In this document: positions 1 through 8,490 of the stretch, one piece after another
Layout of the letters: the number at the start of each line of letters is the position of its first letter
How positions within the stretch are numbered: position 1 is the stretch's first letter
Origin: Pelagovum sp. HNIBRBA483
Lineage (GTDB): Bacteria > Pseudomonadota > Alphaproteobacteria > Rhodobacterales > Rhodobacteraceae
Assembly: GCF_040931995.1 (NCBI RefSeq)
Contig: NZ_CP162412.1
Span: 1,984,001 to 2,048,000, forward strand
DNA: 64,000 nt
Direction: 5' to 3'
The notes under the pieces: model-generated
What the model was told of the DNA's origin: nothing
Seen by the model: only the letters and a program-made list of their open reading frames with translations
The model's database searches: none
Translations under genes and position numbers: made by a program

Positions 1-440
1 CAGAGCTCCTGCGCGACAACGATCTGACAGAACTCGAAGTTCTGCGTGAATACAGCGAAAATGATAGCCTTAACGTTCGCGTCAGCCGTCAGACACAGGT
101 TGTCTCGCAAGTTGCTGCCCCTGCTGCCGTTGCAGCACCCGTGCAAGCCGCGGCTCCGGCCGCCGCTGCAGCCCCCGCGCCCGAATCGGCCGATCCGGTC
201 GATCACCCCGGCGCGGTGACATCGCCAATGGTCGGCACCGTTTACCTGGCGGCCGAGCCTGGCGCCGCACCGTTTGTTTCTGTTGGCAGCAAAGTCAACG
301 AAGGCGACACGCTGCTGATCGTAGAAGCAATGAAAACGATGAACCAGATCCCTGCCCCGCGCGGCGGAACTGTGACGCGGCTCCTCATCGAAGACGGCGC
401 TCCTGTCGAATTCGGTGCGCCCCTGATGATCATCGAATAA
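1..440 (+). CDS. accB: Biotin carboxyl carrier protein of acetyl-CoA carboxylase (5' end outside window)
   Basis: This protein carries the biotin that shuttles CO2 between biotin carboxylase and carboxyltransferase in the first step of fatty-acid synthesis. The reading frame is open from base 3 and its start lies left of the window. The visible part has the usual order: an N-terminal helix ([13 protein letters not shown]), an Ala/Pro-rich linker, and a C-terminal biotinyl domain with the EAMKTMN motif. The lysine that receives biotin is encoded at 333-335. It lies 10 bases before accC in the same direction, the standard accBC pair. The birA gene at about 23.5-24.2 kb encodes the ligase expected to modify it. 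An internal ATG at 141 would remove the N-terminal part and is not the true start. Confidence 0.95.
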
Positions 441-5690: not shown

Positions 5691-6311
5691 TTATTCCCCA
5701 GCGTCGTCGCGCCGCGTCAGAATTTCGTCAATCAGGCCCCAGTCTTTTGCATCTTCGGGCGACATGAAATTGTCACGCTCCAGCGCCGCTTCGACCTTCT
5801 TCAGGGTCTGCCCGGTATGGGTGACGTAAATCTCATTCAGGCGCGTTTTCAGCTTCTGCGTCTCTTGCGCGTGGATCATGATATCTGTCGCCTGCCCCTG
5901 ATAACCGCCCGAAGGCTGGTGCACCATGATGCGGCTGTTCGGCAGCGAGAAACGCATTCCAGGCTCGCCTGCGGTCAACAGCAGCGACCCCATTGACGCA
6001 GCCTGCCCCACACAAAGCGTCGAAACCTTGGGCCTGATGTATTGCATGGTATCATAGATCGAGAGCCCCGAAGTCACCACGCCGCCCGGGCTGTTGATAT
6101 ACATGCTGATCTCTTTCTTGGGGTTCTCGGCCTCAAGATGCAACAACTGCGCAACGATCAACTGGCTCATCCCGTCATGCACGGGGCCAGATACAAAAAT
6201 GATCCGCTCCTTCAAAAGACGCGAGAAAATATCGTAGGCCCGCTCCCCGCGTGCAGTCTGCTCAACCACCATGGGAACAAGGTTCATATACGTTTCAATT
6301 GGATCTTTCAT
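5691..6311 (-). CDS. clpP: ATP-dependent Clp protease proteolytic subunit ClpP
   Basis: ClpP is the serine peptidase that forms the two-ring degradation chamber and works with ClpX. The 206-residue protein has the catalytic serine in GQAASMGS (Ser106), the catalytic histidine in [10 protein letters not shown] (His131), and the aspartate in [11 protein letters not shown]. The INSPGG oxyanion-region motif is present. It is the first gene of a clpP-clpX pair, the standard order. A promoter-like sequence with a CTTGAAG -35 region lies about 55-80 bases upstream, consistent with heat-shock control, although that is inference. Confidence 0.98.
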
Positions 6312-6364
6312 TCTGCCCGCCTCATTTTCGGATTTCTAAACAATAACCGGAGTATCTTGAGGGA

Positions 6365-6393
6365 ATCTTAGTTTGGCGCTGCGGGGGCTTCAA
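6365..6393 (-). promoter_or_regulatory. Candidate clpP promoter
   Basis: On the minus strand TTGAAG (6388-6393) and TAAGAT (6365-6370) are separated by 17 bases, a fair match to a housekeeping promoter. The -35 element is preceded by C, giving CTTGAAG, which resembles the -35 of RpoH promoters. No good RpoH -10 (CCCCATNT type) is seen. Confidence 0.35.
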
Positions 6394-6451
6394 GGCCCGT
6401 TCGTGTATCTCGGCGGGTTGAAGACAATTCCGCGAAGACTAGCTCCGCGAC

Positions 6452-7636
6452 ATGTCAGAACACACCCCATTCGCCCTGCCGTCATTTCTCGCAGCGCAAG
6501 ACAAAATGCGCAGCTTCGCGCCCTTGGCAGGGCACGATTACGCGCGCTTGCGCAACTTCGATATACCCAATCATCCTCATGTTTCCGGCCTCTCACCCTA
6601 CCTGCGCCATCGCATGATCACGGAGGCGGATGTCCTGAAGGAAACGCTGGCGCTTCACCCCCCTGCTCAGCAGAAGAAATTCGTCCAAGAGGTTGTCTGG
6701 CGCACCTATTGGAAGGGCTGGTTGGAAATGCGCCCTGCCGTCTGGACCCAGTACCAAACTGGCCTCCATGCCGCATTGAACCGTATCCAGACCGAATCTG
6801 CCTTGCGCCAGCAATGGCAGTCCGCCTGTGAGGGAACCACAGGAATTGACGGATTTGATCATTGGGCAAAAGAACTTCGCCAGACCGGCTATTTACACAA
6901 TCACGCGCGAATGTGGTTCGCGTCGATTTGGATTTTCACGCTGCGCCTGCCGTGGGAGCTCGGCGCTGATTTCTTCCTGCGCCACCTGCTCGACGGTGAC
7001 CCAGCTTCTAATACGCTGTCATGGCGCTGGGTTGGAGGCATTCAAACAGAAGGTAAGGCCTACCTCGCCAGCCGTAGCAATATTGCGCAATTCACCATTG
7101 GACGCTTTGCGCCAAACAGCCTTATCGAATCCGCACAGCCGCTTGCATTTACCCCGCACCCCGAGCCCGCTCCGCTCCCTGCCGCAACCAAACCCGCCGC
7201 TAACGCCCGCACGCTTTTTCTCATCACCGAGGAAGATTTATCGCCCGAATGGGTGTTGAACGGCGCTCCCGCGCCATATCTCATCGCCACATTGAATTCG
7301 ACAAAAGCCCGCAGCCCATTGCACATCAGCAATGACCTTTCCGCATGGACGGATGCCGCCATGACCGATTGCCTCGCACGCCACGGCTGGTCAGGAGCGA
7401 TCAAATTGCAAGGCGCCCCCGACTTGGCAGAAGTCGTGAAAGCACACAACATAGAACAGATCGTCACCAGTTACCTGCCGATAGGCCCCGCGCGCGACAC
7501 ACTTTCAGCAGCAAACCTCGACACTCCGTTGGTTCAGGTAATGCGCGCTTATGATCGGCGCTGGTGGCCTCACGCGACACATGGTTTCTTCAGGTTCCGC
7601 AAAATCATCCCTCAAATCCTCGAAAGTCTGGCATAG
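6452..7636 (+). CDS. Photolyase/cryptochrome-like FAD-binding protein with reversed domain order
   Basis: Residues 1-235 match the FAD-binding domain that normally forms the C-terminal half of DNA photolyases: [67 protein letters not shown] and an [10 protein letters not shown]-like end. No antenna domain precedes it: the protein begins only about 25 residues before this domain. Instead about 150 residues follow a Pro/Ala linker and look like an alpha/beta Rossmann-type domain ([49 protein letters not shown]). That would be a circularly permuted layout relative to ordinary photolyases. Light-driven DNA repair or signalling is plausible but not shown. It is divergent from clpP. Confidence 0.8.
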
Positions 7637-7704: not shown

Positions 7705-8490
7705 ATGCGCATTCTCATCACCAACGACGACGGCATCAACGCGCCCGGACTGGTCGTACTTGAGAAAATCGCGACAGAGTTGGCCGGCCCCGATGGCGAG
7801 GTTTGGGTCGTCGCGCCTGCATTCGAGCAGTCAGGTGTCGGCCACTGCATCAGCTACACGCACCCGATGATGATTGCGGAACTTGCTCCGCGCCGTTTTG
7901 CTGCCGAGGGCTCACCCGCCGATTGTGTTCTGGCCGCTCTTTACGATGTTATGGCGGATTGCCGCCCCGATCTTGTGCTTTCCGGCGTCAATCGCGGGAA
8001 CAACGCCGCTGACAACGTGCTCTACTCCGGCACGGTCGGCGCGGTTATGGAGGCCGCCCTGCAAGGCCTCCCCGCAATTGCGCTTTCGCAGTACTACGGG
8101 CCCGCAAACGCCAAACTGGACGACCCTTTCGAAGCCGCATCCGTTCATGGCGTCGAAACAGTGCGCAAACTTCTCGATCACGGCCACTGGGACACCTCTG
8201 ACTATCGCCTGTTCTACAATGTTAACTTCCCGCCGGTACCCGCCAATCAAGTCAAAGGCATCGCCCCGACCTATCAGGGCTTCCGTAAGGACAGCTACTT
8301 TGCAGCCGAGCCACACATGTCGCCGTCGGGGCGCAAGTTTCTTTGGATCAAAGGCGGCGCGCAACACGGCCCAACCGGCACAGGCTCCGATGCTCAGGCT
8401 AATCTAGACGGCTACATCTCCGTAACACCGATGCGCGCCGATTTGACAGACCATTCCACCCTCGCGGATCTGCGAAAGGCGCTCTCGTGA
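7705..8490 (+). CDS. surE: 5'/3'-nucleotidase SurE
   Basis: SurE is a metal-dependent nucleoside monophosphatase involved in survival under stress. The 261-residue protein begins [15 protein letters not shown] with the metal-binding Asp pair, has SGVGHCIS and the [21 protein letters not shown] motif (Asn metal ligand), and is normal in length. I start it at 7705, where a perfect AGGAGG lies 4 bases upstream, not at the far upstream in-frame ATG (7564), which lies inside the preceding gene. Its stop overlaps the pcm start (GTGA), so the two are translationally coupled. Confidence 0.96.

Follow-up and report, generated by a model that had tools for sequence, protein, structure and literature searches.

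Layout of the gene and its surroundings

The window, a 64,000-nucleotide stretch of the genome of Pelagovum sp. HNIBRBA483, carries an open reading frame at 6452..7636 on the + strand that begins with ATG and encodes 394 amino acids followed by a stop. On the basis of the reading frame, the homology of its FAD domain, its conserved family and a structural model, we annotate it as a photolyase gene, apparently of the NewPHL type. It is flanked by two genes that we named from their translations: clpP (5691..6311, − strand), which is divergent across 140 bases, and surE (7705..8490, + strand). Of the 80 closest named relatives, 68 likewise have a divergent clpP no more than 1.5 kb from the gene, and surE is in the retrieved flank of one of these 80 loci (L045). 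The 140 bases that separate clpP from the photolyase gene (6312..6451) contain blocks that are partly conserved among 61 aligned regions, including a cTTGA / cTAncT pair oriented toward the photolyase gene and a second pair, CCCTTGCAGC / ACTAAGA, that points toward clpP. These blocks look like two divergent promoters.

The initial annotation proposed that the protein starts with a photolyase FAD domain, ends with an alpha/beta domain and has no antenna domain in front, and this order was borne out. In an AlphaFold2 model built from an 81-sequence alignment (mean pLDDT, 96.0; pTM, 0.93), a helical domain extends to residue 214, a coil continues to residue 253 and a five-stranded alpha/beta domain follows. 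The helical FAD-binding domain (residues 12–214; 6485..7093, + strand) was delimited by Pfam, by hhalign and by alignment of the model to Thermus photolyase 1iqr, in which residues 1..229 align to 168..411 (Z, 16.7; 213 residues; rmsd, 3.2). Within it lie the HNHARM motif (residues 149–154; 6896..6913, + strand) and a second FAD-domain motif (residues 181–193; 6992..7030, + strand), both present as initially described and both supported by alignment to A. nidulans photolyase and by column counts. A Pro/Ala-rich linker (residues 215–253; 7094..7210, + strand), which is coil in the model and less conserved than the FAD domain, leads to the C-terminal alpha/beta domain, here called the Z-domain or Z (residues 254–393; 7211..7630, + strand), which was characterized by folding it alone and by VIA-align. 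Among the best 50 rows of each fold search with the whole model, the matches were to FAD domains only and no entry was named NewPHL.

Sequence searches placed the start of the protein relative to ordinary photolyases. Pfam FAD_binding_7 matched residues 77–205 (E = 3.8e-21), covering only profile positions 1–127 of 203, and hhalign matched the FAD domain to that of ordinary photolyases at 99.9%. By phmmer, residues 15–205 aligned with residues 207–396 of E. coli photolyase 1dnp; because this alignment starts at residue 207, the window protein begins past the usual end of the antenna domain. The N-terminal antenna domain PF00875 had no match in the protein, and the gene begins directly with the FAD domain. 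Searches with Pfam and NCBIfam profiles gave no match in the last 160 residues. A hidden antenna domain upstream of the gene was ruled out, as neither an antenna nor a Phr5-type domain is encoded in the preceding 2.5 kb. An antenna match in this interval was seen in one of 80 relatives (L122), six of the 80 having less than 2.5 kb of upstream sequence.

Three other photolyase-family genes turned up in the same genome when it was searched with PF00875 and PF04244, so the window gene is one of at least four. One of the three encodes 486 amino acids and is nearest to 8-HDF-type and class I models, a second encodes a divergent protein of 535 amino acids, and the third (L200, G000:C1:807875) is a PF04244-type gene whose open frame spans 523 amino acids. 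The protein from this third gene carries a cysteine-rich YCKNC...ACPF segment, as in Fe-S 6-4 photolyases. In two genomes (L191 and L192), another photolyase or cryptochrome gene lies within ~4 kb of the NewPHL gene. A 'DASH-like' class considered for a further locus (L126) was not borne out, since several photolyase and cryptochrome models match L126, L191 and L192, all below cut-off.

Spread of the family and its conserved residues

We extracted 121 homologues with the same layout and lengths of 369–428 amino acids, from a set in which rows below 200 bits had been removed and start codons were picked by script. These similar lengths rule out a frameshift or a truncated photolyase. In the bacterial family to which the window belongs, full-length matches (E = 3.5e-85 or better) were found in 49 of 149 genomes searched, the Pelagovum genome included. 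The number of homologues of similar length, the frequency of full-length copies and the invariant or nearly invariant active-site columns of the FAD domain together confirm that the reversed layout is real and did not arise by chance. Read from raw sequence, it is thus a common arrangement in one bacterial family. The restricted FAD_binding_7 match would suit a degenerating photolyase fragment that has lost its antenna domain and reads through into downstream sequence, but the 121 homologues, the invariant active-site columns and the presence of two domains that are both predicted at high confidence and conserved family-wide leave practically nothing in favour of this explanation.

The remaining listed matches in the family search covered the FAD region only and lay mostly in open frames of ~470–630 amino acids, as for ordinary photolyases; the exceptions were a contig-end fragment (G030) and a two-piece copy (G126). 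In the latter (contig C59:35913-36441), the NewPHL gene occurs as N- and C-terminal pieces with the middle absent, and it is possibly a broken copy. With the C-terminal 160 residues as the query, 13 of the 190 genomes searched in the class gave a match, again including the Pelagovum genome. A profile search of 398 genomes of the phylum gave at least 23 full-length matches (own genome included), a lower bound because not every first-look candidate went on to scoring; among the matches listed, all were from the same class.

One relative, at 48% identity, comes from a record titled uncultured Gammaproteobacteria (L117), and its flanks have no clpP or clpX match; it is possibly a mis-binned contig or a transfer. 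The Ruegeria sp. TM1040 megaplasmid (L203) carries a divergent NewPHL-type gene (43% identity) that has no clpP nearby and adjoins PAS-domain and response-regulator genes. In ten of the 12 plasmid records that matched, the gene is annotated simply as 'FAD-binding domain-containing protein'. The match covers at least 80% of the protein in eight of these 12 records, and NewPHL-type photolyase would be a more useful annotation for full-length plasmid copies.

Residue conservation was counted in two alignments, A2 with 81 rows and the more diverse A1 with 48 rows. Aligned to A. nidulans photolyase, residues N150, M154, N187, W191 and W193 of the window protein correspond to N349, M353, N386, W390 and W392, respectively. 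In ordinary photolyases, we take E283, W286, N349, M353 and W392 to be the CPD-binding positions, N386 (A. nidulans numbering) to be the asparagine at flavin N5, and W390, W367 and E. coli W306 to be the tryptophan positions with known roles. The residues at all five presumed CPD-binding positions are identical in the window protein, and none of the 81 rows of A2 departs from E80, W83, N150, M154, W193, N187, W191 or W168. In A1, the W193 position is W in 47 of 48 rows and Q in one, and the other seven residues are again invariant.

Residue 114, which aligns with E. coli W306, is T in the window protein and in 58 of 81 rows; across the family this position holds T, S, A or V, with no Trp among the four commonest residues. 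Position 109, where the window protein has L, is Trp in 17 of the 81 rows, and position 122 is Trp in 70 of 81, the window protein among them, which would leave room for a longer electron chain in some members. The 13 FAD-contact residues of Synechococcus PCC 6301 photolyase are listed in PMC9426592, which gives T346 for a residue that is W in the PDB sequence. By alignment, nine of the 13 are identical in the window protein, and the rest change from T to V, W to F, W to Y and A to S. The only cysteines of the window protein are at positions 126 and 307, and the Fe-S pattern CxxC..C was found neither in it nor in any of the 121 homologues, which rules out an Fe-S variant of photolyase.

Fold and origin of the C-terminal domain

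Folded alone, the Z-domain was predicted with a pLDDT of 95.4. In a VIA-align search with this model, the top row was photolyase 8ijy (Z, 10.2; 112 residues; rmsd, 2.9), aligned over residues 8..120 only. The antenna domain of 1iqr gave a Z of 9.8 over 134 residues (rmsd, 3.1; 7..148 to 2..146), and the universal stress protein (USP) 1q77 gave a Z of 9.2 over 111 residues (rmsd, 3.9); rows that differ in Z by under 1 count as tied, and 8ijy is not clearly above 1q77. Foldseek alone returned no match for Z below an E value of 0.001; a 6-4 photolyase and a universal stress protein shared the top of its list at 1.5e-3. Photolyases or cryptochromes made up 31 of the best 50 VIA-align rows, and 28 of these 31 align through residue 146–149 of the Z model, one of them (9lpg) by reaching beyond the antenna domain; the other three, including the top row, stop at 120–127. 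The remaining 19 rows, which are USP-like or ATP pyrophosphatases, end at residue 118–132. As modelled, the C-terminal domain does have the antenna-type alpha/beta fold over the full domain.

A sequence match between the last 150 residues and antenna-domain models, which the initial annotation had named as support for a circular permutation, was not obtained directly: Pfam gave no match and hhalign stayed at noise level. Against a profile of 31 antenna domains, Z reached 4.2% at default settings and 2.1% in the reverse direction (scores, 20.9 and 18.5), and 0.03% with '-glob'; a value of 71% obtained with '-corr 0.4' was not counted, as this setting is not the default. As a control, we used 36 decoy profiles from flanking open frames of at least 120 amino acids that were common to six or more loci, a mild control given that some of these frames are perhaps not real proteins. 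The best decoy scored 20.2 with Z, 18.8 with Phr5 and 23.1 with the antenna profile, which places the direct comparison of Z with antenna domains (20.9 versus 20.2) at the level of noise.

A profile match (L180) led us to gene pairs that resemble Phr4 and Phr5. A small alpha/beta protein is encoded in 7 of 337 genomes of the class searched, and in all seven a NewPHL-related FAD-domain gene lies directly upstream on the same strand (the L180, L193-L199 set); at L180, the stop codon of the FAD-domain gene is overlapped by a possible GTG start for the small downstream gene. Pairs of phr4 and phr5 are described in marine Synechococcus (PMC9426592). On Deinococcus plasmids (L201, L202 and L204, read for three of the four Deinococcus matches), the two domains are fused in proteins of 456–472 amino acids, with FAD first and an antenna-like domain last. 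These fusions are annotated only as 'FAD-binding domain-containing protein' and carry the CxxC..C pattern; overall, six of the ten Phr4-like or Deinococcus rows have an Fe-S type cysteine pattern.

The Phr5-type domains matched the antenna profile at 90–96%, well above the decoys, and at 95–96% from end to end when the Deinococcus domains were included. With Z, the Phr5-type profile gave 11–66% depending on direction and set; with the Deinococcus domains added, it gave 20–66% over 94–96 columns. We also tested a USP profile, which gave 27–48% with Z over 32–35 columns, 78–83% with the Phr5-type domains over 39–40 columns and 15–16% with the antenna profile. The scores with Z were 27–30 for the USP profile and 24–33 for the Phr5-type profile. 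Because the USP control performed similarly to the Phr5-type profile with Z, part of each signal comes from the HUP fold that all these domains share, and the link from Z to antenna or Phr5-type domains is weak by sequence alone.

Phylogeny provided a stronger argument for the origin of Z than the profiles. In a FAD-domain tree of 45 rows, the NewPHL proteins (16) and the Phr4/Deinococcus type (10) grouped together against 19 antenna-first proteins with support of 100/100. Of the 31 ordinary photolyases, 16 were included, as were 16 NewPHL proteins chosen for diversity, with neither the PF04244 protein nor class II photolyases among the rows. As this places the alpha/beta domain after the FAD domain in one clade, and this domain is antenna-like in one branch, the simplest reading is that Z is a diverged antenna domain. 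The initial annotation had left the choice between a circular permutation and a fusion with an unrelated domain. The sister group, which has an antenna-like domain after the FAD domain either fused or as a separate gene, favours a swap in domain order, as does the fold, and the suggestion of an unrelated domain fared less well.

Alternatively, Z might be another domain of the HUP superfamily, such as a universal stress protein, that was joined to a FAD domain without its antenna. USP structures come close to antenna domains against the Z model, and the USP profile does about as well with Z as the Phr5-type profile. However, it is the photolyase and cryptochrome rows that span Z through residue 146–149, the sequence match of the USP profile extends over far fewer columns than that of the Phr5-type profile, and the sister group has an antenna-like domain in the same place as Z. 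We therefore consider this alternative unlikely, and Z is most likely a diverged antenna domain that is now placed after the FAD domain.

It is possible, although we would sooner doubt it, that the FAD-first order arose once, through separate, overlapping antenna-type and FAD genes that were later fused in reverse. The separate-gene stage would resemble the Phr4/Phr5-like pairs that we observed in Alphaproteobacteria. If this were true, NewPHL would be a natural domain-swapped photolyase produced by gene fission and refusion, with Z as a relic antenna. Short photolyase-like proteins (SPL) are listed as one of eight groups (PMC9178010) and have been put forward as the group from which the photolyase/cryptochrome family arose (PMC9498864, PMC9649867); given this proposal, where the C-terminal domain came from is relevant to how photolyases gained their antenna.

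Proposed function and comparison with known photolyases

From the order of the domains, their predicted fold, the conserved residues and the placement in family and clade shown above, we infer that the window protein binds FAD and most likely carries out light-driven repair of CPDs in single-stranded DNA, the substrate being proposed by analogy with characterized family members. The N-terminal helical domain would bind FAD, and the reduced form, FADH−, would be excited by blue or near-UV light. An electron would then pass from it to a cyclobutane pyrimidine dimer bound in a pocket formed by E80, W83, N150, M154 and W193, and the electron would return to the flavin once the dimer is split. Oxidized flavin would be re-reduced by light through a chain of two tryptophans, W191 and W168. 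Instead of collecting light, the Z-domain probably packs onto the FAD domain, which would fit the higher conservation of the C-terminal segment of Z: the mean share of the commonest residue is 0.68 in this segment and 0.50 in the rest of Z, compared with 0.77 in the FAD domain.

This conserved segment is also what might be expected of a signalling surface, as in a cryptochrome-like light sensor. Cryptochromes are homologous to photolyases, and the three other photolyase-family genes in the genome could cover repair. By contrast, the CPD-pocket positions and the asparagine at flavin N5 are kept in all or nearly all members, and published NewPHLs are described as repairing CPDs (PMC13274461, PMC9426592), which makes a sensor in place of a repair enzyme very improbable. 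Taken as a whole, a NewPHL-class photolyase that repairs CPDs in single-stranded DNA and carries a diverged antenna domain as Z is a highly probable explanation.

The closest parallels outside NewPHL each differ from the window protein. Universal stress proteins and other HUP-fold domains have the same core fold as Z but no attached FAD domain, and their alignments end before the end of Z, as noted above. Cryptochrome DASH has a homologous FAD domain and differs in its N-terminal antenna domain; it repairs CPDs in single-stranded DNA. Class I and III CPD photolyases (E. coli PhrB, A. nidulans and Agrobacterium 4u63) have the same FAD domain, CPD pocket and flavin-N5 Asn, but have an N-terminal antenna domain and a longer C-terminal part of the FAD domain. 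They also have a Trp triad. SPL and the Phr4/Phr5 or Phr6 proteins of cyanobacteria (PMC9426592) share a FAD domain without an N-terminal antenna, although the Fe-S pattern that follows the FAD domain in SPL and Phr4–Phr6 is absent from the window protein. SPL were reportedly treated by Xu et al. 2021. The Phr4-like and Deinococcus proteins, whose FAD domains share a clade with NewPHL, differ in the Fe-S pattern of six of the ten rows and in an alpha/beta domain that matches antenna profiles at 90–96%.

The window protein most resembles the NewPHL photolyases, which are said to be the subject of Emmerich et al. 2020 (NAR 48:12845). Its predicted structure has the FAD domain first, no preceding antenna and a short C-terminal Z-domain; by alignment it has a Trp dyad (W191 and W168, in 81 of 81 rows) with T114 at the third position; and it has the CPD-pocket residues and the Asn at flavin N5, with no Fe-S cysteines. 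In published descriptions, NewPHLs have an inverted topology and repair CPDs in single-stranded DNA (PMC13274461), their layout is an N-terminal FAD domain and a C-terminal Z-domain (PMC9426592), the Dinoroseobacter shibae protein is a photolyase with a 'mere Trp dyad' (PMC8948257), Phr7 is described without Fe-S cysteines (PMC9426592) and this Asn is conserved in NewPHL (PMC12083526). The literature names members from D. shibae, Methylobacterium mesophilicum, Erythrobacter litoralis and Rhodospirillum centenum, and already places Phr7 nearest to Phr4 and Phr6. Compared by description only with the named members A8LJA9 (D. shibae) and M7YZC8 (M. mesophilicum), the window protein showed no difference: the proteins of D. 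shibae and M. mesophilicum and Prochlorococcus Phr7 share its FAD-first order with a short alpha/beta Z-domain last, and NewPHLs share its lack of Fe-S cysteines, its Trp dyad and its CPD-pocket residues. The closest relatives in our searches are, like D. shibae, roseobacter-type Alphaproteobacteria. The initial annotation raised the prospect of a different light-sensing or repair protein; in its architecture, motifs and taxonomy, the window protein instead fits the published NewPHL class, a known class rather than a new architecture.
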